Assembly: GCF_003610535.1 (NCBI RefSeq)
Contig: NZ_RAPN01000006.1
Location: 1 to 64,000 of the forward strand
Source: Mangrovibacterium diazotrophicum
GTDB taxonomy: Bacteria; Bacteroidota; Bacteroidia; Bacteroidales; Prolixibacteraceae
Direction: 5' to 3'
Length of the DNA stretch: 64,000 nucleotides
This document shows positions 45,573-60,193 of this stretch, piece by piece; within the stretch, counting starts at the first letter, position 1; each line of letters opens with the position of its first letter. Made by a program: the position numbers and the translations under genes. Under the pieces are notes generated by a model. The model saw only the letters and a list, made by a program, of their open reading frames with translations. It made no database searches and was not told the origin of the DNA.

Positions 45573-46964
45573 ATGGAAAATTTTAAATCTTCAAAAGCAA
45601 CTAAAATTGACTTGTTCAGTTTGAAATCTGTCCAAATGAAAACCTTTCACATTACCTGGTTTTCTTTTTTCCTCTGTTTCTTCGGATGGTTTGGGGTAGC
45701 TCCGTTGATGGCTGTTATTCGTGAAGAATTGATGCTCTCCAAATCACAAATCGGAAACATCATCATCTCTTCGGTGATGATTACCATTTTCGCCCGTTTG
45801 CTCATCGGTTGGATTGCCGATAAAATAGGACCTCGAATTACTTACACCTGGCTGCTGATCATCGGGTCGCTTCCGGTCATGCTAATTGGGCTCAGTAATG
45901 ATTATACATCTTTCCTGATTTTCCGTTTGCTCATCGGTGTCATTGGCGCATCTTTCGTGATTACCCAATTCCACACCTCGCTGATGTTTGCTCCCAATGT
46001 GGTTGGTACAGCCAATGCAACTACTGCAGGCTGGGGAAACCTGGGCGGAGGAGTAACGCAAATGGTGATGCCACTTATTTTCGCTGCTTTTGTGTCTCTC
46101 GGCTACGTTAGCAGCGAGGCCTGGCGCTATGCCATGGTTGTTCCGGGAGTACTCATGATTATTATGGGGCTGGTCTATTATAAATTTACGACCGACACCC
46201 CGGAAGGAAACCTGAAAGATCTGAAGAAAGCAGATCCGGATTTTGCCATCAAGAAAAAAGCTGAAAAAGGACAATTCCTGGCGGCGCTGAAAGATTACCG
46301 TGTTTGGGGCTTGTTCCTGATTTACGGCGCTTGTTTCGGTATTGAACTTACCATCAACAATATTGCCTCACTTTATTACAAAGACTATTTCAACCTCGAT
46401 GTAAAAACAGCTGGTTTAATTGCCGGTTTATTCGGATTGATGAACCTGTTTGCACGATCCCTGGGCGGTATCTTCGGCGACAAAGCCGGTATCAAATGGG
46501 GATTGAAAGGCCGGGTTTATTTCCTCTTTATTGTTCTTTTGCTGGAAGGATTCGCCTTGATTGCCTTCAGTAAAATGACAATCCTGCCAATCGCCATTTT
46601 CAGCATGATTGTGTTCAGCCTGTTCGTCCAAATGTCTGAAGGCGCCACCTTCTCGGTTGTTCCTTTCATTAATAAGAAGGCTATCGGAACTGTTTCCGGA
46701 ATCGTTGGTGCCGGCGGAAACGCGGGTGCAGTTGCTGCAGGATTCCTGTTCAAAATGGAAAACGTTTCCTACCCGCAGGCTTTGTTTATCATCGGGATAA
46801 TTGTCTGCGTCATCTCTCTGTTTGCCTTCCTGGTTCGATTTACAGAAGAGGCTGAAGAAGAAGCCCGCAAAGAACTTTCAGAGGTGTATTCGCTTAACGA
46901 TGTCGTTCAGCCAAAGCCTGTTTTCATCTACAGCTACGCTAAAAAAGGAATGTATAAAATCTAA
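45573..46964 (+). CDS. Nitrate/nitrite MFS transporter (NarK/NasA type)
   Basis: 463 residues with twelve membrane helices and the nitrate signature: FHTSLMFAPNVVGTANAT then AGWGNLGGGVTQM, and the second one in SVVPFINKKAIGTVSGIVGAGGNAGAVAAG. It imports nitrate or exchanges it with nitrite across the inner membrane. The N-terminus has a 25-residue cytoplasmic stretch before the first helix. Its stop lies 4 bp before the start of the nitrate reductase gene, so co-transcribed. Confidence 0.92.
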   Translation: MENFKSSKATKIDLFSLKSVQMKTFHITWFSFFLCFFGWFGVAPLMAVIREELMLSKSQIGNIIISSVMITIFARLLIGWIADKIGPRITYTWLLIIGSLPVMLIGLSNDYTSFLIFRLLIGVIGASFVITQFHTSLMFAPNVVGTANATTAGWGNLGGGVTQMVMPLIFAAFVSLGYVSSEAWRYAMVVPGVLMIIMGLVYYKFTTDTPEGNLKDLKKADPDFAIKKKAEKGQFLAALKDYRVWGLFLIYGACFGIELTINNIASLYYKDYFNLDVKTAGLIAGLFGLMNLFARSLGGIFGDKAGIKWGLKGRVYFLFIVLLLEGFALIAFSKMTILPIAIFSMIVFSLFVQMSEGATFSVVPFINKKAIGTVSGIVGAGGNAGAVAAGFLFKMENVSYPQALFIIGIIVCVISLFAFLVRFTEEAEEEARKELSEVYSLNDVVQPKPVFIYSYAKKGMYKI

Positions 46965-46968
46965 GACC

Positions 46969-49900
46969 ATGAAGGCCGGAGAATACAAATCAACTTGCTC
47001 TTATTGCGGAGTAGGCTGCGGAATCATTGTCTCAAAAATGCCCGACGGGAAAGTGACAGTGCGCGGCGACCGGGAGCACCCCGTGAACCAGGGAAAACTG
47101 TGTTCCAAAGGTTTGAATCTGCACTACGTTGTCAACAACCAGGACGACCGCCTGTTGGTTCCGCAAATGCGTTTGGGGAAAGGTCACCCGCTTAAAACAG
47201 TGGAGTGGCCCGAGGCAATCGCCCGCGTAGCCACCGTTTTTAGCTCATTAATCCAGAAATTCGGTCCCGACTCGGTGGCATTTTATGTATCCGGCCAATG
47301 CCTCACCGAAGAATACTACGTGGCTTCGAAACTGGCCAAAGGATTTTGGGGAACCAACAACATCGACACCAACTCGCGCCTCTGTATGAGTTCCGCAGTA
47401 GTTGGCTACAAAATGCAACTTGGAGAGGATGCTGTTCCGGCCTCCTACGAAGATATCGACCTGGCTGATTGCTTCTTCATTACCGGAGCAAACCCGGCCT
47501 GGTGCCACCCTATTTTGTTTCGCCGCATTGAAGCACGAAAAAACGCCAATCCGGACGTGAAGATCGTCGTTGCTGACCCTCGCCGCACACAAAGCTGCGA
47601 ATTGGCCGACCTGCACCTTCAACTAAAACCGGGCACCGATGTGTATCTCAACAATGCCATCGCCCGAGTGCTGCTTGAAAACGGCTATGCCGACTGGGAT
47701 TTCATCCGTCACCACACCAACGGCATTGAAGAAATGCAGGCTGAAGTGATGGCAACTTCGGTAGAAGAGGCCGCTGAAATTTGTGGTCTTGAAGCTGACG
47801 ACATTCGACTGGCAGCAAAGTACATCGGCGAAGCAAAAGGCTTTATTTCGATGTGGGCCATGGGCCTCAACCAAAGTGTGATTGGGGTGAAAAAGAACTT
47901 GTCGCTCATCAACCTTTCGCTCATCACCGGCAAAATTGGCAAACCGGGTAACGGACCGTTTTCGCTCACCGGGCAACCCAATGCCATGGGTGGACGCGAA
48001 GTGGGCGGCATGTGTAACCTATTACCAGCACATCGCAATTTGGACAACGAAAAACACCGCCGCGAAGTAGCTGAATTTTGGAACGTTGCCGAAGTACCAG
48101 CCAAACCGGGCTACAGTGCAACCGAAATGATTGATGCTCTGGAAAGCGGCCAATTGAAAGCAGTTTGGGTGATTTGCACCAACCCGATGGTGAGCCTGCC
48201 GAACTCGCACAAAGTAGAGCGTGCCTTGAAAAACGCCAAGTTCGTCGTGGTTCAGGACATCTCAAAAAACTCGGACACCGTGCCTTTTGCAGACGTTGTT
48301 TTCCCGGCTGCCGGCTGGTTAGAGAAAGAAGGTACAATGACCAATTCGGAACGCCGAATCACCTACCTGAGCCAAGTCGTAAAAGCACCAGGCGAAGCAC
48401 TCCCCGACTTTGAAATCATGTGCCGTGTGGCTCGGAAAATGGGCTACTCCGGCTTCAACTTTAAAAATGCACAAGAAGTATTCGACGAATATAAACAGCT
48501 GACACTCGGCACCAACATTTCAATTGGTGAGTTGAGCTACAACCACCTTCGTGAAAAAGGGTCGGTGCAATGGCCTTTTAGAAACGGCAGAAGCACCGCT
48601 CGTTTATTCGAAGACAAGAAATTTTACACTCCCACGCAAAAAGCAAACCTGTTTGCGGTGGAGCCAACCAACGATTCGGAAAAACCGAGCGATGACTATC
48701 CGTTCATCCTGACAACCGGCCGGATTCGTGACCAATGGCACACCATGACGCGCACAGGTAAAGTGAAACGTTTGCAGCAGCACATCGACAAACCATTCCT
48801 GGAAATTCACCCAACCGATGCCGAAAAACTGGGAATTGAAAACGACGATGTCGTCACCATTAAAAACCGGATGGGCGAAGTGAACGCTGCGGCCAAAGTG
48901 AGCGAGACAGTTCGTCCGGGCGTTGTTTTCCTGCCCATGCACTGGGGAAAAGTGTTGGCCGGGAATCATGCAAGAACAAATAACTTGACTTTCGATCGCG
49001 TCGACCCAAAATCGAAAGAACCAGATTTCAAATACAGTACTGTTCAAATTGAAAAATATGCCAAGCCAGCCGAGCAAATCATTGTTGTTGGTGCGGGCGC
49101 AGCTGCCCTTCAATTTGTACGCAGCTATCGCGAGAAAAATCAGGCCGACCAGATTTTGGTCATTTCAAAAGAAACGCATCCGTTCTACAACCGGGTTTTG
49201 TTGCCCGATTATATTTCAGGTAGCCTAAGCTGGCAAGCCCTGCAAAAAACGAACGACGACGAAATCAAAAGTCTGAATATTCAGCTTGAAGCTGGTGTGA
49301 GCATGAAGTCGATTGATGCCGAGGCAAAAACGGTGAAATGCTCGAACGGTAAAATTTATACCTACGGAAAACTCATTTTGGCAACCGGTTCGAGCCCCAA
49401 TGTTGCCAACTCAGCGTGGATGCAATTCCCGTCAACTTACACCATCCGGAACCGTTATGATGCCGATCGCTTCCGTAAAGAGATCAAAGCGGATCAACGC
49501 GTATTGGTTGTGGGCGGCGGTTTGCTGGGACTTGAAATGGCAGCATCACTGCTTGAGCTAGATGTCAACGTAACCCTGGTAAATCGGAACCCGCGCCTGA
49601 TGGATCGCCAGCTCGACAACGACTCGGCCATCCTTCTAAAAGAAATTCTCACTGAAAAAGGTGTACAAATCCTGTTCAACGACGAACTCAGTCAAATCAA
49701 TTATGACTGGCAGGATCAACACCAGGTGAGCTTTAAAAGTGGTAAACGACTGAATTTTGATGCCATTGTTTTCGCCATCGGTACAAAACCAAACATCGAT
49801 TTTGCGAAAAATGTCGTCGACACCCGTCGTGGAATCATTGTTAACGAACATCTGCAAACCAGCCGTGAAGATATTTATGCCATTGGCGAAATTGCAGAAC

Positions 49901-50466
49901 TGAACGGAAACCTTTTCGGCATTACTGCCGCTGCCGAGGAACAAGCCACCGTATTGGCCAACCACCTACTGGGCAACCCGATGAGCGAATATTACGGCAC
50001 GGTTTCCATGAACATCCTCAAATTCCCGGGCATTGATCTTTGTTCTGTTGGACTGACCTCCATTCCTGACGGATCGAAAGGTTTCGAGGAAGTTGTTTTC
50101 ATCGATAAAGCTGCCCGCTACTACAAGAAATGTATTGTGAAGGATGACGTTTTAATGGGTGCGATCCTGATGGGTGACAAAGCCGAATTTGCCGAGTTCA
50201 AAAAACTGATTGTGCAAAAAACGGAGTTGGCCGGGCTACGCAACAAACTGCTCAGAACAGGCAAACCGGTGGAACCGGTCATGGGCAAATTGCTTTGCTC
50301 GTGCAACAACGTGGGAGCCGGCAATATTCAAAAAGCCATCCGTGGCGGTTGTCAGAATCTGGATGCTGTTTGCGAGGCAACCGGTGCCGGATTGGGATGC
50401 GGAAGCTGCCGCCCCGAGGTTCAAAAGCTGTTAAAAGAAGAACTCGAACCTGTTAGCAGTAACTAA
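46969..50466 (+). CDS. nasA: Assimilatory nitrate reductase fused to NirB-type FAD/NAD(P)H and [2Fe-2S] module
   Basis: 1165 residues. The first about 690 residues are a Mo-bis-MGD oxidoreductase: Fe-S ligands C10, C13, C17 and C45 (CSYCGVGC, GKLCSKG) and the Mo-ligand Cys about residue 139 (NSRLCMSS). Then from about 703 a pyridine-nucleotide-disulfide-type FAD domain (IIVVGAGAAALQF, YNRVLLPDYISG), NAD(P) binding at about 845 (VLVVGGGLLGLEMA) and a BFD [2Fe-2S] domain at about 1110 (LLCSCNNVGAGNI ... GLGCGSCRPEV). The usual NasA and its NADH reductase subunit are thus joined. Start at the ATG 46969; an open frame upstream (46801) belongs to the shadow of narK. Reduces nitrate to nitrite in the cytoplasm. 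Confidence 0.92.
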   Translation: MKAGEYKSTCSYCGVGCGIIVSKMPDGKVTVRGDREHPVNQGKLCSKGLNLHYVVNNQDDRLLVPQMRLGKGHPLKTVEWPEAIARVATVFSSLIQKFGPDSVAFYVSGQCLTEEYYVASKLAKGFWGTNNIDTNSRLCMSSAVVGYKMQLGEDAVPASYEDIDLADCFFITGANPAWCHPILFRRIEARKNANPDVKIVVADPRRTQSCELADLHLQLKPGTDVYLNNAIARVLLENGYADWDFIRHHTNGIEEMQAEVMATSVEEAAEICGLEADDIRLAAKYIGEAKGFISMWAMGLNQSVIGVKKNLSLINLSLITGKIGKPGNGPFSLTGQPNAMGGREVGGMCNLLPAHRNLDNEKHRREVAEFWNVAEVPAKPGYSATEMIDALESGQLKAVWVICTNPMVSLPNSHKVERALKNAKFVVVQDISKNSDTVPFADVVFPAAGWLEKEGTMTNSERRITYLSQVVKAPGEALPDFEIMCRVARKMGYSGFNFKNAQEVFDEYKQLTLGTNISIGELSYNHLREKGSVQWPFRNGRSTARLFEDKKFYTPTQKANLFAVEPTNDSEKPSDDYPFILTTGRIRDQWHTMTRTGKVKRLQQHIDKPFLEIHPTDAEKLGIENDDVVTIKNRMGEVNAAAKVSETVRPGVVFLPMHWGKVLAGNHARTNNLTFDRVDPKSKEPDFKYSTVQIEKYAKPAEQIIVVGAGAAALQFVRSYREKNQADQILVISKETHPFYNRVLLPDYISGSLSWQALQKTNDDEIKSLNIQLEAGVSMKSIDAEAKTVKCSNGKIYTYGKLILATGSSPNVANSAWMQFPSTYTIRNRYDADRFRKEIKADQRVLVVGGGLLGLEMAASLLELDVNVTLVNRNPRLMDRQLDNDSAILLKEILTEKGVQILFNDELSQINYDWQDQHQVSFKSGKRLNFDAIVFAIGTKPNIDFAKNVVDTRRGIIVNEHLQTSREDIYAIGEIAELNGNLFGITAAAEEQATVLANHLLGNPMSEYYGTVSMNILKFPGIDLCSVGLTSIPDGSKGFEEVVFIDKAARYYKKCIVKDDVLMGAILMGDKAEFAEFKKLIVQKTELAGLRNKLLRTGKPVEPVMGKLLCSCNNVGAGNIQKAIRGGCQNLDAVCEATGAGLGCGSCRPEVQKLLKEELEPVSSN

Positions 50467-50467
50467 A

Positions 50468-51928
50468 ATGAAAAAGACAAACAACAAATATCTTTACCGT
50501 GTACTCAGCAAAGGTGGTGTTCTGTCGCCTGCCCTGTTTGCCGACGTGCTGAAACTGGCTGAAGAAGCCAGCAACAAGCATGTGCTGCTCGGCTCGCGGC
50601 AGGACATCCTTTTCGATCTGCCCAAAGATGCTACGCCAAAGATTGAAGGCTCGGGCATTTCAATCCAAAAGCGAAGCTCGGGGCTGCAAAATGTCGTTTC
50701 ATCCTACGTTTGTGTCGATATTTTGCCTTCTACCAACTGGGTGTATTCAGGAACCTTCCTGAAAATACTCGACCAATTCACGTTCGATCACCAGCTTCGG
50801 GTGAACATTGTGGATCCGCGGCAGAACATGGTTCCGCTATTTTACGGCCAGATTAATTTCATTGCTTCAGATGTGCCCAACTACTGGCACCTGTTTTTAA
50901 ATCTGAAAGATGGCAAGAGCCCTGAAAGCTGGCCGGGTTTGGTTTTTACCGAAGACATTGCAGAATTTGCAGCGAAGCTTGAAAACCTGATTTTAGTCGA
51001 TCAATTGAAATCGGTGAACGAACTAAGCACAGCCTTGGCTTCGACCAACCTGCAAAAAAACACGCTGGACAAGGATTCGAAGATAACGCTGCCAAAAGGC
51101 TTTTTCCCGTACTACGAGGGGCTGGTAAAAATGGACGGCAAAAGCCAGTATTGGGCTGGTTTTTACTGGCGAAGCAACCAATATCCAATTCAATTTTTGA
51201 AGGAGGTTTGCGAGCTGTGCATGAAAACCAATGTGGGAAAGATCAGCTTTACCCCCTGGAAAACGTTCCTGATCAAGGATATTGAGGCTAAAGACAAAAA
51301 GTATTGGGACGAGTTGATTGGTCGCTACGGCATTAACATGCGCCACTCATCGTTCGAGCTGAACTGGCATTTGCCATTGCTGGATAAGGAAGCTCTGAAG
51401 CTGAAACGCTACCTGGTTTCCGAGTTCGACAAGTTCGACATCCGTACATTCGGGCTCTCCTTTGCCATTCAAAACAAAACCGCGGGAAATTTCACAACCG
51501 TGGTCATTCGCAAAAATGGTCGGTTGCCTTTCCTGGGAAGGTTCGATTTCACCAGCAATTACAGTGTCGAACATGCATATGATTTCAACCCAAACAGCAA
51601 CCACTACCTGACTTTTCAATCACGCCTCAGTAAAAGTGAGTTACCAAATGCGTTGAGCGAATTGACCAAACGCTACTACGCCCGCTTGTTTGTGCAGAAA
51701 AACCCGGAGATAACCGGACGCCAGAAAGAAAATAAGGGTGCAAAACGCCTGGTTCACCAGTGTAGCTTTTGCAAAACGGTTTACGACGAGCGCTACGGTG
51801 ATCAGCTCGCCGATGTCCCGGCCGGCACTTCATTCGTGCTGTTACCGGAGACCTATTGCTGTCAGGTGTGCGAATCGCCAAAATCAACATTTAACGAATT
51901 GGAAATAACCGAAGCCATCAGTGCTTAA
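50468..51928 (+). CDS. Rubredoxin fused to a nitrite/sulfite-reductase-like domain without sirohaem ligands
   Basis: 486 residues, ATG 1 bp after the nasA stop. The first about 420 residues have half-domains of the sulfite/nitrite reductase type (SKGGVLSPALFADV, HVLLGSRQDILFDL, ISFTPWKTFLIKDI), but no CX5C...CX3C sirohaem/Fe-S set is present. The last about 55 residues form a rubredoxin: CSFCKTVYDERYGD then CCQVCESP, with iron ligands CxxC and CxxC. This suggests an electron carrier protein, not an enzyme, acting between a reductase and the Mo enzyme. Role is inference from position. Confidence 0.75.
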   Translation: MKKTNNKYLYRVLSKGGVLSPALFADVLKLAEEASNKHVLLGSRQDILFDLPKDATPKIEGSGISIQKRSSGLQNVVSSYVCVDILPSTNWVYSGTFLKILDQFTFDHQLRVNIVDPRQNMVPLFYGQINFIASDVPNYWHLFLNLKDGKSPESWPGLVFTEDIAEFAAKLENLILVDQLKSVNELSTALASTNLQKNTLDKDSKITLPKGFFPYYEGLVKMDGKSQYWAGFYWRSNQYPIQFLKEVCELCMKTNVGKISFTPWKTFLIKDIEAKDKKYWDELIGRYGINMRHSSFELNWHLPLLDKEALKLKRYLVSEFDKFDIRTFGLSFAIQNKTAGNFTTVVIRKNGRLPFLGRFDFTSNYSVEHAYDFNPNSNHYLTFQSRLSKSELPNALSELTKRYYARLFVQKNPEITGRQKENKGAKRLVHQCSFCKTVYDERYGDQLADVPAGTSFVLLPETYCCQVCESPKSTFNELEITEAISA

Positions 51929-51939
51929 AACTAAAATAG

Positions 51940-52911
51940 ATGTATCGAATTGAAGATCATATGGGAAGACGTTTTGAAAAGCTGCGGGTTAGCTTGCTGA
52001 ACACCTGCAATTTTTCGTGCACCTACTGTGTGAGCTCCGGACCGGATGCAACGCAAAACAGCCTGGTGCCGGCTTTCCGCGAGGAACAATTGGATACCAA
52101 CGACTTTGCCAAACTGATTGCAGCCGTGCACCGTGTTTGCGGACTGAAGAGCATCCGCCTGACCGGTGGCGAACCGCTGCTTTATATGAATTTGTTCCCG
52201 CTGATCGAACAGATCAGGAACATCGGAATTGAAGATATTCGCCTGACAACCAACGGCTACTACCTGAAGCAGACAGCCAATCAGTTGAGTAAATCAGGCG
52301 TGCGTTCCATCAACGTGTCCCTCGATGCCATTGATGCAGATTTAATGAAAACCATTTCCCGCCACCAGAATCCGCAAAAGGTTTTTGATGGCATTGAAGC
52401 GGCTGTTGAAGCAGGCTTGAATGTGAAGCTGAACGCCGTGATTATGCGCGGACAAAACGATTCGCAAATCATTCCGCTGCTGGACTACGCAGCAAAAATT
52501 GGCGTTAAAATTCGCTTCCTCGAGCTGATGAAAATGGGACACCTTTTCCAAGGACAGAATGAATTGTTCTTCTCCGAAAAAGAGATTCTCGAAACGATCT
52601 CCCGGAGCTACAACATTCAACCACTGGAGCGTAAAGCTTCGGACACGGCACACTACTGGTCGGCAGGAGGACAACGAACCTTTGGCATTATTGCCAACGA
52701 GTCGACCCCATTCTGCCACGACTGCAACCGGCTGCGCATGGACAGCCGCGGATACTTTTTCGGCTGCCTGAGTAACGCCCATGGCGAAAAGCTGGCGCCG
52801 TTCATTGAAGATCAGGACTTATTAATACAAAAGCTTCGTCAACTGCTGCTGTTGAAACAACCTGTGAAATTTCACGGGAGCAAGCTGTCGATGCGCAATA
52901 TTGGAGGATAA
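51940..52911 (+). CDS. moaA: GTP 3',8-cyclase (molybdenum cofactor biosynthesis)
   Basis: 323 residues. Radical-SAM cluster Cys 23, 27, 30 (NTCNFSCTYC), C-terminal Fe-S cluster CHDCNRLRMDSRGYFFGC, and a terminal Gly-Gly (MRNIGG), which is the family end motif. SAM-binding LTGGEPLLYM. It turns GTP into the 3',8-cyclo compound for cyclic pyranopterin. First gene of the cofactor set, 11 bp after the rubredoxin gene; moaC, needed next, is not in the window. Confidence 0.95.
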   Translation: MYRIEDHMGRRFEKLRVSLLNTCNFSCTYCVSSGPDATQNSLVPAFREEQLDTNDFAKLIAAVHRVCGLKSIRLTGGEPLLYMNLFPLIEQIRNIGIEDIRLTTNGYYLKQTANQLSKSGVRSINVSLDAIDADLMKTISRHQNPQKVFDGIEAAVEAGLNVKLNAVIMRGQNDSQIIPLLDYAAKIGVKIRFLELMKMGHLFQGQNELFFSEKEILETISRSYNIQPLERKASDTAHYWSAGGQRTFGIIANESTPFCHDCNRLRMDSRGYFFGCLSNAHGEKLAPFIEDQDLLIQKLRQLLLLKQPVKFHGSKLSMRNIGG

Positions 52912-52914
52912 CAG

Positions 52915-53163
52915 ATGGAATCAACCATTCAAGTAACCTGTTTCGCCGGCTTAAAAAAATACTTTGCAGGAGAGCTGACCTTAAACCTAGTTCTTCCCAC
53001 GGCTTACGAGAACGTGTTGGAAGAAATGAAAAGGATCAATCCCGAAGCAACCGAGATTCTGGATAGCTGTCGCATCGCCGCTTGCCAGACTTTCGTTCCG
53101 CTCAAGTCGCTAATGACTTCGGATGAACCGATTTTCATCGTTCCTCCTTCAAGCGGAGGATAA
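52915..53163 (+). CDS. moaD: Molybdopterin synthase small subunit
   Basis: 82 residues with ubiquitin-like fold words and the C-terminal VPPSSGG, whose Gly-Gly is thiocarboxylated to deliver sulfur. Starts 3 bp after moaA; overlaps no gene. It works with MoaE and is activated by the MoeB-like protein encoded downstream. Confidence 0.85.
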   Translation: MESTIQVTCFAGLKKYFAGELTLNLVLPTAYENVLEEMKRINPEATEILDSCRIAACQTFVPLKSLMTSDEPIFIVPPSSGG

Positions 53164-53236
53164 GCGAATTGAAGAATGATTAACGATTAGTGATTGCCGA
53201 TTAACTCGAAACTTGTAACACATAACCCAAACTCAA
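53164..53236 (+). repeat. Short AACTCG/AACCC repeat before moaE
   Basis: The 73 bp between moaD and moaE end in TAACTCGAAACTTGTAAC then ATAACCCAAACTCAA, words related to the heptads of other gaps. Also GATTAACGATTAGTGATT short direct words. It may affect moaE translation but no Shine-Dalgarno is visible. Confidence 0.5.
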
Positions 53237-53704
53237 ATGCAACATCTAACGCCAGATACCATCAATTATGCTGATCTGTTCGTCGATTTCCGCGATCCGA
53301 ACAGCGGTGCTGTTGTCCTGTTCAGCGGTGAAGTTCGCGACAACAACAAAGGACGAGCTGTGACCCATTTGGAGTACGAGGCTTACGAACCGATGGCTGA
53401 GAAAATGATCGCAGATATTCTGCGCGATGCTTTCGAAAAATGGCCGTTGAACAAAGCGATTTGTGTGCACCGGGTTGGAAAAGTTGAAATCTCGGGCTGT
53501 GCTGTGGTTGTGATCACGAGCTCGGCACACCGTGCAGCTGCTTACGAAGCAAATCGTTACATCATCGACCGGGTGAAATACGAGGCGCCGATTTGGAAAC
53601 ATGAGTTTTTTGCTGACGGAACCAGCGAGTGGGGACAAAACTGCGATTGCAGCTCTCCATCGCATCCGCATCATCACGAACACAAACACCAATACGCCAA
53701 ATGA
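53237..53704 (+). CDS. moaE: Molybdopterin synthase large subunit
   Basis: 155 residues. Conserved blocks VLFSGEVRDNNKGRAV, LEYEAYEPMAEKM and KYEAPIWKHEFFADG, the last with the lysine of the active site, plus ICVHRVGKVEISG. It puts two sulfurs on precursor Z using MoaD thiocarboxylate. The C-terminus is His/Ser-rich (CSSPSHPHHHEHKHQ), unusual and possibly metal-binding. The stop overlaps the next start by 4 bp (ATGA). Confidence 0.93.
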   Translation: MQHLTPDTINYADLFVDFRDPNSGAVVLFSGEVRDNNKGRAVTHLEYEAYEPMAEKMIADILRDAFEKWPLNKAICVHRVGKVEISGCAVVVITSSAHRAAAYEANRYIIDRVKYEAPIWKHEFFADGTSEWGQNCDCSSPSHPHHHEHKHQYAK

Positions 53705-54417
53705 GAACCTTGACGACAGAAGATCACAACCGCTTTTCTCGTCACATCTCGCTGGCCGAGATTGGCGAAAGCGGTCAGCAAAAGCTGAAAAATGCACGGG
53801 TGCTGGTAATTGGCGCCGGTGGCTTGGGCAGCCCGTTGCTGACTTACCTGGCTGCTGCCGGAGTCGGCTCCATTGCCATTGTTGACGATGACGTGGTAAG
53901 TGCTTCGAACCTGCAGCGACAGATTCTGTATGCCACGGCCCAGGTCGGGTTACGGAAAGTGGAGATGGCCGCACAACGGTTGGTCGAGTTGTATCCCGAA
54001 ATCCGGATTTTGGCTTACAACACGCGGCTGACAAGCGAAAACGCAGAAGAATTGATTTCGGATTGCGACGTGGTTGCCGACTGTTCCGACAACTACGCCA
54101 CCCGCGCACTGATTGGAAATGTTAGCGCGAGGCTGAAAAAACCGCTAGCCTACGCTTCGGTATTGAATTACGAAGGACAGGTGACTGTCTTCAACTATAG
54201 CGAAGGAGCGTCTTTCGGCGAGCTTTATCCAAGCTTACCGAAAGACGGCCTGTACAAAACTGATGAAATTGGTTTGGTAGGCGTGCTACCCGGAATTGCC
54301 GGTTGCCTGCAAGCCAACGAAGTACTGAAAATCATCACCGGATATGGTGAGGTGCTCTCCCGAAAACTGTTGGTTTTCGCCATTAACGAAAACCGTTTTC
54401 AGGTTTTTAATTACTAA
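53701..54417 (+). CDS. moeB: MoeB/ThiF-type E1-like adenylyltransferase without the zinc cysteines
   Basis: 238 residues, ATG overlapping the moaE stop. N-terminal HISLAEIGESGQQKL, ATP-binding VLVIGAGGLGSPLLTY, Asp/Arg residues VDDDVVSASNLQRQIL, and late VLPGIAGCLQANEVLKIITG are the MoeB marks. MoeB normally carries two CxxC zinc pairs (near GPCYRCLYPE and before the VLGVLPG block), but here those places read GASFGELYPS and YKTDEIG. So the adenylating fold is kept and the zinc site lost. Sulfur carrier likely MoaD. Confidence 0.87.
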   Translation: MRTLTTEDHNRFSRHISLAEIGESGQQKLKNARVLVIGAGGLGSPLLTYLAAAGVGSIAIVDDDVVSASNLQRQILYATAQVGLRKVEMAAQRLVELYPEIRILAYNTRLTSENAEELISDCDVVADCSDNYATRALIGNVSARLKKPLAYASVLNYEGQVTVFNYSEGASFGELYPSLPKDGLYKTDEIGLVGVLPGIAGCLQANEVLKIITGYGEVLSRKLLVFAINENRFQVFNY

Positions 54418-55090: not shown

Positions 55091-57583
55091 ATGAAAAAAC
55101 GAATTGTATTAATCGGAAACGGGATGACCGGCTACAAATTCTGCGAGAAATTTGTGGCATCTCCACTGGTTCAGGACTACGAACTGCTTGTTTTTGGTGA
55201 AGAACCTCACCCTGCTTACGACCGGGTGCACCTGACCTCCTACTACACCGGAACTGTTCCGGAGGAATTGTTGTTGGCTCCGGCCGGCTGGTATACCGAA
55301 CACGGAATTGAACTGCGCACGCATGAACGAATTACGGGCATCGATCGCGAAGCCAAAACCATCCAGTCGGAAAGAGACTTGACTTATCATTACGACATCC
55401 TCGTGCTGTCAACCGGCTCATCTGCATTTGTTCCTCCCATTCAGGGAGTTGAAAAGAAAGGTGTGTTCGTGTACCGCACGTTCGACGATATCGACAAAAT
55501 AAAAGCTTACATCCCCGAAGCCAAAAAGGCGGCGGTAATCGGCGGCGGACTTTTGGGCTTGGAAGCTGCAAAAGCAGTACTCGACGACGGATTGCCAACC
55601 AGCATAGTGGAGTTCGCTCCCCGCCTGATGCCGCGTCAGCTTGACCCGCAAGGCGCCGAAATCCTAAAGTCGAAACTGGAAGAATTCAACCTGGAAGTTT
55701 TACTGAATAAAAGCACCGAATGCATCGTTGGGAATGGATCAATTCAAGGTTTGAAATTTACCGACGGAAGCAGCATCGACGCTGACCTGCTCGTGATTTC
55801 AGCCGGGATTCGTCCGCGTGACGAACTCGCTAAAAATGCAGGTTTGGAAGTGCACGCTCGTGGTGGAATTGTGGTAAACAGTAAAATGGAAACACTGGAC
55901 CCCAACATCTTTGCCATCGGTGAATGTGTGGTGGTGCATAATATGGTGTGGGGCCTGGTTGCGCCATGCTACGAAATGGCTGAAGTGCTGGTTAAAAACC
56001 TGCAAGGCGACTCTGCCGAATTCCTTGGCTTCGACCTGTCGTCGAAACTAAAACTGATCGGTACCGATGTGGCCAGCTTCGGCGACGCTCTTTCAGCACA
56101 GGAAGGAATGAAAACAATTGTGTACGAAAACAAGGCGCGCGGCGTGTATAAACGACTCAATCTTTCGGCTGACGGCAAATACCTGTTGGGTGGAATTTTG
56201 GTTGGCGAGGCCGACGAATACAATATGCTGAAGCAGGTGGTGAACAACAAAATGGTACTGCCTGAAAACCCGGAAGATTTCATTTTGGGTGCCCGCGGTG
56301 GCGAAGGTGGTGCCGGCATCAGCGTTGGCGACCTGCCCGACTCAGCCGTCATTTGCTCCTGCGAAAACATCACCAAAGGTCAGATTTTGCAGGCCATTGA
56401 AAAAGACGGTGCCGAAGCAGTTCCGTTGATTAAAAGGTGTACCAAAGCCGGAACCGGTTGTGGTGGCTGTGTGCCCATGATCGACGATTTGCTGACACAT
56501 TACATGAAGTCTCAGGGACGTGAAGTACGCAAAACCATTTGCGAACACTTCAACTACACCCGCCAGGAATTATATGACCTGATCAAGGTGAACGAGATTA
56601 AATCGTTCAATGAGCTGTTGCATGCCCACGGGAAAGGCTCTGGTTGCGAGATTTGTAAGCCTGTTACAGCATCACTGCTTGCCAGCATCTGGAACGAAGT
56701 GATTGCCAAGCACGATACCATTCAGGACACCAACGACCGCTTCCTGGCAAACATCCAGCAACGCGGCGTGTACTCCGTTGTTCCGCGTATTCCGGGTGGA
56801 GAAATTACCCCGGACAAATTAATTGTGATTGGACAAGTAGCAAAGAAATACGACTTGTACACCAAGATCACCGGCGGCCAGCGTATCGACCTGTTTGGTG
56901 CACGGGTTGATCAGCTGCCTAACATTTGGGAAGAACTGATTGATGCCGGATTTGAAAGCGGACACGCTTACGGTAAAGCATTGCGAACCGTAAAAAGCTG
57001 CGTTGGTTCAACCTGGTGCCGCTACGGAATGGACGACTCGGTGACTTTTGCTATCGACGTTGAAAACCGCTACAAGGGACTTCGTTCTCCGCACAAATTG
57101 AAAGGCGGCGTTTCGGGCTGTGTACGCGAATGTGCTGAAGCACGCGGCAAGGACTTCGGCATCATTGCTACCGATAAAGGCTGGAACTTGTTCGTTTGTG
57201 GAAACGGTGGTGCCAACCCGCGCCATGCCGACCTGTTGGCTTCCGACCTCGACAAAGAAACCTGCATCAAATACCTCGACCGCTTCCTGATGTTCTACAT
57301 CAAAACAGCCGGCCCGTTAACCCGGACCTCCAAATGGCTGTCGGAACTGGAAGGCGGATTGGGCTACCTGAAAGACGTCATTGTGAAAGACTCACTGGGC
57401 ATTGGCGAAAAACTGGAGCAGGAAATGGAAGAACTGATTTCGCATTACCAATGTGAGTGGACGACTGTTGTCCGCAACCCGGAAATGCGCCAGAAATTCC
57501 GCCACTTTGTCAACTCAGATCAAATCGACGAAAACATCAAATACGTACCGATGCGTGGCCAAAAAATGCCCGCCAAAGCATAA
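55091..57583 (+). CDS. nirB: NADH-dependent nitrite reductase, large subunit
   Basis: 830 residues. NADH/FAD module (1-300) with IVLIGNGMTGYKF and VIGGGLLGLEAAK; two BFD-type [2Fe-2S] regions at about 418-480 (VICSCENITKG ... GTGCGGC) and 480-535 (KTICEHFNYTR ... GCEICKP); the sirohaem domain has SCVGSTWCRYG (C637, C643) and GCVRECAEARG (C677, C681) ligands, and is intact. It reduces nitrite to ammonium in the cytoplasm with NirD. Normal length. Confidence 0.95.
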   Translation: MKKRIVLIGNGMTGYKFCEKFVASPLVQDYELLVFGEEPHPAYDRVHLTSYYTGTVPEELLLAPAGWYTEHGIELRTHERITGIDREAKTIQSERDLTYHYDILVLSTGSSAFVPPIQGVEKKGVFVYRTFDDIDKIKAYIPEAKKAAVIGGGLLGLEAAKAVLDDGLPTSIVEFAPRLMPRQLDPQGAEILKSKLEEFNLEVLLNKSTECIVGNGSIQGLKFTDGSSIDADLLVISAGIRPRDELAKNAGLEVHARGGIVVNSKMETLDPNIFAIGECVVVHNMVWGLVAPCYEMAEVLVKNLQGDSAEFLGFDLSSKLKLIGTDVASFGDALSAQEGMKTIVYENKARGVYKRLNLSADGKYLLGGILVGEADEYNMLKQVVNNKMVLPENPEDFILGARGGEGGAGISVGDLPDSAVICSCENITKGQILQAIEKDGAEAVPLIKRCTKAGTGCGGCVPMIDDLLTHYMKSQGREVRKTICEHFNYTRQELYDLIKVNEIKSFNELLHAHGKGSGCEICKPVTASLLASIWNEVIAKHDTIQDTNDRFLANIQQRGVYSVVPRIPGGEITPDKLIVIGQVAKKYDLYTKITGGQRIDLFGARVDQLPNIWEELIDAGFESGHAYGKALRTVKSCVGSTWCRYGMDDSVTFAIDVENRYKGLRSPHKLKGGVSGCVRECAEARGKDFGIIATDKGWNLFVCGNGGANPRHADLLASDLDKETCIKYLDRFLMFYIKTAGPLTRTSKWLSELEGGLGYLKDVIVKDSLGIGEKLEQEMEELISHYQCEWTTVVRNPEMRQKFRHFVNSDQIDENIKYVPMRGQKMPAKA

Positions 57584-57588
57584 CAACT

Positions 57589-57942
57589 ATGGAAACACAA
57601 GTAATCACAACAGTAAAAGAGTGGGTGAAAGCTGCGGCAGTAGAAGACTTTCCGCAGAACGGCGGCGCTGCAGTGCTGATCAATGGTGAGCAAATCGCGG
57701 TATTCAACTTTACGAACGAAGGCCGTTGGTACGCCACACAAAACCGCTGCCCGCACAAAGGTGAAATGGCCATCTCGCGTGGCCTCACCGGCGACTCGGA
57801 TGGTTTGCACAAAGTGGCTTGCCCGTTCCACAAAAAGACTTTTTCGCTCGAAGATGGCAAATGCCTCACCGACGAAGGTTACCAATTGAAAACTTATCCC
57901 GTAAAAATAGAAGACGGATTCGTTTATGTTGGGATTGAATAG
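57589..57942 (+). CDS. nirD: Nitrite reductase small subunit (Rieske)
   Basis: 117 residues. Rieske ligands in NRCPHKG and CPFHKKTF. Starts at the ATG 57589, 5 bp after nirB; the frame goes on upstream inside nirB but that part is not real. It is the small subunit of the NirBD enzyme. Confidence 0.93.
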   Translation: METQVITTVKEWVKAAAVEDFPQNGGAAVLINGEQIAVFNFTNEGRWYATQNRCPHKGEMAISRGLTGDSDGLHKVACPFHKKTFSLEDGKCLTDEGYQLKTYPVKIEDGFVYVGIE

Positions 57943-58658: not shown

Positions 58659-59399
58659 ATGACAACAACACACTTAATATCAATCGTTGGCGCAGGGCCG
58701 GGAGATCCGGAGTTGCTGACCGTTAAAGCGCACAAACGCCTGAGCGAAGCAGACGCTGTACTGTACGATGCTCTGCATGGTTACGATATTCTGAAATTAG
58801 CTCGCGAAGACGCCGAAATGATCTACGCGGGCAAATTTCAGGGTGACGGCCAATGCCAGGCCAAACGCCAGGATGATATTCATCTGAAGATGGCGGAACT
58901 GGCTGCACTGGGCAAAAAAGTTGTTCGTCTGAAAGCCGGTGATCCGATGGTGTTCGGACGCGGAGCCGAAGAAATTCGTTTCTGCAAACAGCAAGGGCTG
59001 ACTTACGAAGTGATTCCCGGAATTACAGCGGGAGTTGCTGCAGCCGGCCTGCTCGAAGTTCCGATTACCGAACGCCAAAAAAGCCCGATGGTACTTTTCT
59101 ACACCGGACACCGCACCGACGACTCGCTTTCAAACATTGAAAGTGTGATTGAAGTGCTGAAAGCCGGCGGAACGGTTACCGTTTACATGGGGTTCAAGAA
59201 TATTGGTTTGCTTGCAGGCTCCATTATTGAAGCCGGATTGGATCCGCAAATGCCCGTTCAGGTGATGAGCCACGTTGGGCAGGAAGCGCAAAGCCTGCTG
59301 AGTTGTACCATCAGTAATGTTGAGCAATGCATTCTTGAAAAGAAACCGTCCACTCCTGCTGTTTTGTTCATCGGGAAATATGCCGACCCTATCGTTTAA
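58659..59399 (+). CDS. cobA: Uroporphyrinogen-III C-methyltransferase
   Basis: 246 residues of SUMT. LISIVGAGPGDPELLTVKA, DAVLYDALHG, VVRLKAGDPMVFGRGAEE, and VIPGITAGVAAAG are all in place. It methylates uroporphyrinogen III twice to make precorrin-2 in the sirohaem route. Works with the dehydrogenase gene before it, 81 bp away. Confidence 0.94.
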   Translation: MTTTHLISIVGAGPGDPELLTVKAHKRLSEADAVLYDALHGYDILKLAREDAEMIYAGKFQGDGQCQAKRQDDIHLKMAELAALGKKVVRLKAGDPMVFGRGAEEIRFCKQQGLTYEVIPGITAGVAAAGLLEVPITERQKSPMVLFYTGHRTDDSLSNIESVIEVLKAGGTVTVYMGFKNIGLLAGSIIEAGLDPQMPVQVMSHVGQEAQSLLSCTISNVEQCILEKKPSTPAVLFIGKYADPIV

Positions 59400-59479: not shown

Positions 59480-60193
59480 ATGATTAAACACCGCATCGAT
59501 TGTCTGAGCTGTTCAAATTCGGAATGCCTGATCAAAAAGCATTGCGGAGATCCGGGTATTACATCTTACTTGAGTCGTAAAGTATCGATCCCCGCACGAA
59601 AAGGTCAAAACATTATCATCGAAGGCTCGCCAATCCACGGGTTGTACTTTGTTTATTCCGGAAGAGTCAAAGTATTAACCACCGGCATCAACGGGCGGGA
59701 ACAGATTCTGCGTTTTGCCAAGGAAGGAGAAATGCTGGGACAGCGTGGCTTCAGTACCCATCAGTACTACCCGATTGGTGCTTCAGCCCTGGAAGACACC
59801 ATCGTCTGCAACTTCTCGATGGAAGTGATGAAAGAGATGCTGCTCAACTTACCCAAACTCTCCTACGACTTCATTTCGTTTTACGCCGAAGAACTGCACC
59901 GCAGCGAAACCAAAGTCCGCATGTTTGCGCACATGACCGTTCGTGAAAAAGTAATCGATGCACTACTTTATATTACACGAAAATTTGGGTCGAAGAAAAA
60001 CTTCATCAACATCACGCTTAGCCGCAAAGAAATTGCTGATTTTGCCGGGACAACAGAAGAACAAGTCATCCGCGTACTTTCGTCCCTGAAAAAAGAAGAA
60101 TTAATCCTTCTTTCGGGCAAAAAAATCGGAGTTCCGGATGCGGATATTCTCAAAAAAGAGATCGCAGAGCATCATTATTTCATCCAAAGCTAA
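59480..60193 (+). CDS. Crp/Fnr-family regulator with FNR-like cysteines
   Basis: 237 residues. Cyclic-nucleotide-binding fold (about 25-140) and HTH_Crp (about 150-220, recognition part EEQVIRVLSSLKKE). Four N-terminal cysteines C8, C11, C16, C22 and C110 in IVCNFSMEV, which aligns with FNR C122, make an Fe-S sensor likely. It probably controls the nitrate locus in response to oxygen or nitric oxide. The HTH keeps a glutamate and an arginine typical of Crp readers. Ends at a terminator. Confidence 0.85.
   Translation: MIKHRIDCLSCSNSECLIKKHCGDPGITSYLSRKVSIPARKGQNIIIEGSPIHGLYFVYSGRVKVLTTGINGREQILRFAKEGEMLGQRGFSTHQYYPIGASALEDTIVCNFSMEVMKEMLLNLPKLSYDFISFYAEELHRSETKVRMFAHMTVREKVIDALLYITRKFGSKKNFINITLSRKEIADFAGTTEEQVIRVLSSLKKEELILLSGKKIGVPDADILKKEIAEHHYFIQS

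Follow-up and report, generated by a model that had tools for sequence, protein, structure and literature searches.

Many assimilatory nitrate reductases are not, to our knowledge, known to need a chaperone. In Paracoccus denitrificans, NarJ serves the assimilatory NasC (PMC6618116), and NasG of Paracoccus is described as mediating electrons to both reductases (PMC4724949). Rubredoxin-type accessory proteins have been reported for formate dehydrogenase (FdhE; PMC10609526) and for hydrogenase (HoxR, PMC10583674; HupI/HoxR, PMC3772215). No paper on NarM was found in the open-access literature searched, and Haloferax NasC, considered as a relative, was rejected because its source describes it as MobA-like.

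Here, we analyzed a 64,000-nucleotide stretch of DNA from Mangrovibacterium diazotrophicum (hereafter, the window), in which a nitrate assimilation cluster contains the gene for a protein, here termed RUBP, that joins a body with the predicted fold of sulfite and nitrite reductases (SiR/NiR) to a C-terminal rubredoxin (Table 1). As the original prediction had it, RUBP begins a single base after the fused assimilatory nitrate reductase NasA, and a rubredoxin lies at the C-terminus of a SiR/NiR-like protein: the Pfam models Rubredoxin (PF00301, E 4.8e-13, residues 430-475) and NIR_SIR_ferr (PF03460, E 1e-8, best stretch residues 5-59) both matched above their cut-offs, with PF03460 giving two stretches at a loose cut-off and one at E 0.01. 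In a family alignment of 32 members (the window protein, L059-L061 and L062-L089), PF03460 was matched in all 32 and PF00301 in 29 at E<=0.01. No match of RUBP to PF01077 was obtained at E<=1, no NCBIfam model scored above its cut-off, and a PHROGs search returned no match; identification as the precorrin-3B synthase CobG was rejected, since TIGR02435 scored 11.6 bits against a cut-off of 234.8. A relative of RUBP carries the name 'rubredoxin' in two annotated plasmid records (Spirosoma and Hymenobacter), and no description of RUBP was found in the open-access literature searched. RUBP is a real, unnamed family that combines two known parts.

Table 1. Features of RUBP and of the neighboring genes in the window.
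Feature	Coordinates	Strand	Basis or remark
RUBP, SiR/NiR-fold body (predicted) and C-terminal rubredoxin, 486 aa	50468..51928	+	ATG start
RUBP body, residues 1-412	50468..51703	+	Residues 8-412 align to the NirA/SiR catalytic chain; without cluster cysteines
RUBP first ferredoxin-like half-domain (PF03460), residues 5-59, invariant R44-Q45	50480..50644	+	Pfam, alignment
RUBP invariant CxxC (C248, C251), helix of half-domain 2, family-specific	51209..51220	+	Alignment, predicted structure
RUBP residues 289-300, IN-RH-ELNW signature, opposite the first SiR/NiR cluster cysteine	51332..51367	+	Alignment; Cys in no member
RUBP rubredoxin domain, residues 430-475, CxxC-29-CxxC	51755..51892	+	Pfam, fold search
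NarK-type nitrate/nitrite transporter	45573..46964	+	Sequence; gene at the same place annotated NarK family in Spirosoma
Fused assimilatory nitrate reductase NasA: Mo domain, NirB-like FAD/NADH domain, BFD	46969..50466	+	Likely start 46969, inside a longer ORF from 46801; stop at 50466, one base before RUBP start at 50468
MoaA, molybdenum cofactor synthesis	51940..52911	+	TIGR02666 score slightly below the cut-off
Short ORF with terminal GG, judged MoaD-like from its position alone	52915..53163	+	No Pfam match at 1e-5
MoaE	53237..53704	+	
ThiF/MoeB-like	53629..54417	+	
NirB, NADH nitrite reductase with sirohaem/4Fe-4S domain	55091..57583	+	
NirD, Rieske-type small subunit	57589..57942	+	
Tetrapyrrole methylase, probably uroporphyrinogen methyltransferase (sirohaem synthesis)	58659..59399	+	

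AlphaFold modeling gave a pLDDT of 83.4 and a pTM of 0.67 for the whole of RUBP, and 85.1 and 0.78 for residues 1-412. When the whole model was compared with the PDB using Foldseek, 31 SiR/NiR chains ranked first, followed mostly by rubredoxins, and the best match was M. tuberculosis NirA (1zj8, E 1.3e-15). With the body alone, all 31 matches at E<=0.001 were SiR or NiR, among them 1zj8 (E 2.0e-15, TM 0.57 by query length; the rmsd of about 15 A in the model matches makes the relative domain placement in the predicted model unreliable), and dissimilatory sulfite reductase was a weaker match that ranked below this set. Compared by profile against 14 NirA/SiR proteins, RUBP residues 8-412 covered the whole catalytic chain over 387 columns (probability 96.3, E 1.9e-9, 12% identity), and a repeat with the body only gave E 1.7e-9. 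The similarity to SiR/NiR anticipated in the original prediction was thereby recovered by structure prediction, and both the overall fold and the order of the half-domains are present in the predicted model. The fold search, the profile comparison and the 32-member alignment support a body with the predicted two-fold SiR/NiR architecture and without the catalytic cluster site. This is consistent with the proposal that RUBP is a former reductase, although it is the fold that points to descent from a working enzyme, and no intermediate between RUBP and NirA/SiR was present in 395 sampled genomes, where the 29 members were followed by two partial matches at E 7e-4.

The protein had also been proposed to lack sirohaem ligands, which held for the cysteines but not for all residues of the pocket. 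Three of the SiR/NiR cluster-cysteine positions can be aligned in RUBP (residues 298, 305 and 337), the fourth falling in an alignment gap, and cysteine was found in 0/32 members at each of the three. Stray cysteines after C251 occur in some members (column 331 in 7/32, column 306 in 3/32 and column 260 in 15/32), and no body cysteine after C251 is conserved family-wide among the 32. With these cysteines lost, the alignment indicates that a catalytic 4Fe-4S-sirohaem centre of the established kind cannot be assembled. As for the pocket, the equivalents of E. coli SiR R83, R117 and K217 (R11, R44 and K/R111 in RUBP) are basic in 31, 32 and 31 of the 32 members, the N154 equivalent is asparagine in all of them, and RUBP N75 is invariant. 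The equivalents of R85, Q121 and R153 are kept in 0/32, and that of K215 is basic in 18/32, with a one-residue gap near K215/K217 that makes the alignment uncertain there. R83, R153, K215 and K217 are basic substrate residues of the E. coli enzyme, and part of the basic SiR/NiR pocket appears to persist in RUBP as judged from the aligned residues. A reading in which the entire active site is lost was rejected upon recounting of the E. coli numbering, the R83 equivalent being the retained R11, and N113 was rejected as a nitrite-reductase-type asparagine because the profile alignment sets position 111, not 113, opposite K217.

The family also displays invariants of its own. These include a CxxC in the second half-domain (C248-x2-C251), which the original prediction had missed, as well as R235, E297 and a T262-P263-x-K265 motif in which W264 is kept in 31/32 members; R292 and H293 each occur in 31/32, and H293 precedes the position of the first lost cluster cysteine by five residues. 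In all, 33 columns are invariant across the 32 sequences, which are 30-81% identical to the window protein, and 39 of the 72 body columns conserved at >=90% fall within residues 214-335 (p 5e-6). Shared conserved columns between RUBP and SiR/NiR were not enriched (69 and 47 conserved, 10 shared, 414 aligned, in an alignment forced end to end; Fisher p 0.24), and this lack of coincidence suggests that the constraints are new and not those of a retained catalytic site.

While the body is present in 32/32 members, the rubredoxin is absent in one and shortened in two. The CxxC-28/29-CxxC arrangement is kept in 29/32; L087 and L088 have two CxxC motifs with 8 and 15 residues between them, respectively, and L089 has no rubredoxin CxxC. 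The tail of RUBP has both the CxxC-n-CxxC motif and the predicted fold of a rubredoxin, with Foldseek TM-scores of 0.84-0.95 by target length against solved rubredoxins. L089, whose gene sits at a contig start (contig 4 of genome G186; L119), is moreover alone in coming from a genome with no detected fused NasA (E<=1e-100) or NirB (E<=1e-60), and this orphan body looks like a relic or, less probably, the product of an assembly gap in G186.

Among the 395 sampled Bacteroidota genomes, RUBP was found in 29, and a profile of the body recovered the same 29 at E<=1e-143. The distribution is patchy: in 61 genomes of near relatives, a full RUBP occurs in three, all of one genus (G000, G002 and G003), another member of which (G001) is without it. 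A fused NasA, matched over most of both halves at E<=1e-100, was detected in 33 of the 395 genomes, 28 with RUBP and five without, and NirB was detected in 28, which are exactly those with both fused NasA and RUBP. In 30/30 fetched loci showing both genes (29 measured, plus L088), RUBP is placed downstream of NasA with the two on the same strand, and the arrangement first noted in the window extends to other Bacteroidota. The two genes are within 20 bp or overlapping in 14/29 loci, and the widest spacings are 606 bp (L086) and 954 bp (L088). Such constant genetic linkage to NasA is what would be expected of a NasA accessory protein. The nitrate cassette was also found on plasmids of Spirosoma and Hymenobacter, and RUBP and NasA also had matches on two Persicobacter plasmids. 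A search of 72,556 plasmid records, through which alone phyla other than Bacteroidota were covered, gave four that encode a nearly full-length RUBP, all from Bacteroidota, and the same four head the list of fused NasA matches at 54-57% identity; one Nonomuraea record matched 98% of NasA at 31% identity, in two pieces that may not be a true fusion, and gave no RUBP match.

In the window, moaA, a MoaD-like ORF, moaE and a ThiF/MoeB-like gene come right after RUBP on the same strand (51940-54417), and moaA is also directly 3' of RUBP in four relatives. At the cluster end lies a gene (59480-60193) whose sequence suggests a CRP-like regulator; one 52-56% identical to it was present in the fetched stretch of 10/28 loci (L062-L089), and given this recurrence it may be the regulator of the cluster.

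The five genomes with a fused NasA and without RUBP (G279, G110, G068, G215 and G239), none of which has a full-length NirB match, may represent a single evolutionary event. Their clusters (L096-L100; Pfam search on L099) have, in this order, NarK, a NirA-type reductase with an intact cluster motif, a flavodoxin, an FNR and NasA, and the flavodoxin and FNR were detected beside NasA in 5/5 of these loci and in 0/31 RUBP loci (tblastn, E 1e-10). In L096, a bacterial globin is encoded between FNR and NasA. In L100 (8398-12053), the coding sequence for the NasA of G239 is broken near the N-terminus into two overlapping frames, reflecting either a sequencing error or a pseudogene.

It had been asked why a second electron input would be needed if NasA takes NAD(P)H directly, and alignment of NasA makes this question sharper. 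The cysteines of the N-terminal 4Fe-4S site, of the Mo site, at the position we take it to occupy, and of the BFD domain are conserved in 34/34 aligned sequences (30 with RUBP and four without, the frame-split L100 being left out), indicating that NasA by itself would provide a complete route from NADH to Mo. On sequence grounds a second input appears not to be needed, and the completeness of the relay with or without RUBP speaks against RUBP acting as a required relay step.

From its linkage and its lost cluster site, we consider it very probable that RUBP is a non-catalytic accessory protein dedicated to the adjacent fused NasA. A tentative reading, held at somewhat below even confidence, is that it is a redox-active partner in the assembly (maturation or protection) of NasA, to which it would presumably bind. 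The reductase-shaped body may dock on NasA via its own conserved region, at about residues 214-335 and including the CxxC, and the rubredoxin iron site could supply or sense one electron while the Fe-S/Mo centres are inserted or kept active, by analogy with the roles proposed for HoxR in hydrogenase and FdhE in formate dehydrogenase. The downstream position of RUBP in every locus seen, a body more constant than the redox tail, and the placement of moaA right after RUBP in the window and four relatives fit this role. NarJ-family chaperones were found in 0/30 RUBP genomes and in 2/5 genomes with a fused NasA but without RUBP; since the other three of these five are also without NarJ, RUBP is a weak marker of missing NarJ, and NasA would not always need such a partner. 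FdhE was found in 0/21 genomes tested (16 with RUBP and five without). FdhD, another possible maturase, is present in 10/30 RUBP genomes, which counts against an assembly role, and its presence in 1/5 genomes without RUBP makes it uninformative as a discriminator between the two groups. Nor would the exact co-occurrence of RUBP with NirB be predicted for an assembly factor of NasA alone, but the five genomes with a fused NasA and without RUBP use a different nitrite reductase.

The original prediction had offered either an electron carrier or an assembly partner of the Mo enzyme, and the constant linkage to NasA fits this pair but does not decide between the two. A carrier role, comparable to that of NasG, we regard as possible though doubtful; in it, the rubredoxin would take electrons from the NasA FAD and/or NirB for nitrate reduction, while the body would serve as a scaffold for docking. 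Rubredoxin is a classic one-electron carrier, its cysteine spacing is kept in most members, RUBP co-occurs exactly with NirB, and flavodoxin and FNR stand beside NasA in the RUBP-less clusters and in none of the RUBP loci searched; however, that pair may just serve the neighboring NirA, the NADH-FAD-2Fe2S-4Fe4S-Mo chain of NasA is complete in every sequence aligned, and the rubredoxin is shortened or absent in three members. In both NasA and NirB, the FAD portion contains the rubredoxin-reductase C-terminal domain PF18267 and gives a NorW match below the NorW cut-off, but FAD domains of the NirB type generally show these two features. Moreover, rubredoxins usually have a high potential, whereas assimilatory nitrate reductases usually take low-potential donors.

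Quite improbable is a role as a tetrapyrrole or anion sensor or carrier, in which the body would still hold sirohaem or nitrite in the partial pocket and regulate or supply NasA/NirB. The retained basic residues (R11, R44 and K/R111), the invariant N75, the nearly invariant H293 close to the first lost cysteine position and the presence of NirB in all 28 cassette genomes of the sample are compatible with such a role, but R153, R85 and Q121 have no retained counterpart in any member, a basic residue stands opposite K215 in just 18/32, the axial cysteine is lost, and the conserved columns of RUBP and SiR/NiR do not coincide. That RUBP is a dispensable passenger, or a gene in decay, within a mobile nitrate cassette is very improbable: it does diverge faster than its neighbors (78% identity between the window and L059, versus 84% for NasA and 93% for NirB), and the cassette occurs on plasmids, but 33 columns have stayed invariant across divergent sequences, the 29 matches of the 395-genome search have no internal stops, and the sole member without a rubredoxin is the sole one whose genome showed no NasA or NirB. 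Slighter still is the chance that RUBP remains an enzyme that reduces nitrite or sulfite by means of a differently arranged cofactor, for which the complete SiR/NiR fold and the scattered, non-aligned cysteines of columns 306 and 331 might speak, but which is at odds with the absence of all aligned cluster cysteines and of any family-wide body cysteine after C251, with NirB already present in 28/28 cassette genomes, and with a separate SiR with intact motifs in the window genome.

Returning to the assembly reading, a more elaborate version, which we hold to be rather unlikely as a whole, is that a sirohaem-reductase fold, its catalytic cluster lost, has become a new class of maturation or redox partner for a molybdoenzyme, its pocket possibly holding a tetrapyrrole or anion with H293 as a possible new axial ligand, and the rubredoxin and invariant CxxC serving as redox centres that would make NasA active, or keep it so, alongside NirBD. 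Many Bacteroidota assimilatory nitrate reductases appear to have a dedicated partner that is hidden under the annotation 'rubredoxin'. If RUBP is an assembly factor, it would help explain how nitrate reductase matures in genomes without NarJ, and it would also exemplify the use of a sirohaem reductase body without its catalytic centre.

Compared with known systems, RUBP has in common with the NirA/SiR hemoprotein (PF03460 and PF01077; 1zj8 and 1aop) the predicted two-fold body, but at about 12% identity it is without the cluster cysteines, a PF01077 match and the R153/Q121 equivalents, and it adds its own CxxC, TPWK and RH-ELNW signatures and a rubredoxin tail. This tail has the same CxxC-29-CxxC and fold as rubredoxins (PF00301), but it is appended to a body that exceeds 400 residues. 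The NasG/NirD Rieske ferredoxin is likewise a small redox protein of nitrate assimilation clusters, but its centre is of the Rieske type and the RUBP cluster has its own NirD. With NarJ, the chaperone of NarG and of P. denitrificans NasC, RUBP may share the role of serving a cytoplasmic Mo nitrate reductase as its dedicated partner, but RUBP gave no match to NarJ/TorD (PF02613) at E<=1, and the fold of NarJ is a different one. We know of no reductase-like body in FdhE or HoxR/HupI, and RUBP gave no match to FdhE (PF04216) at E<=1; these proteins resemble the RUBP tail in placing a rubredoxin-type iron site in an accessory protein of a Mo or Ni enzyme.
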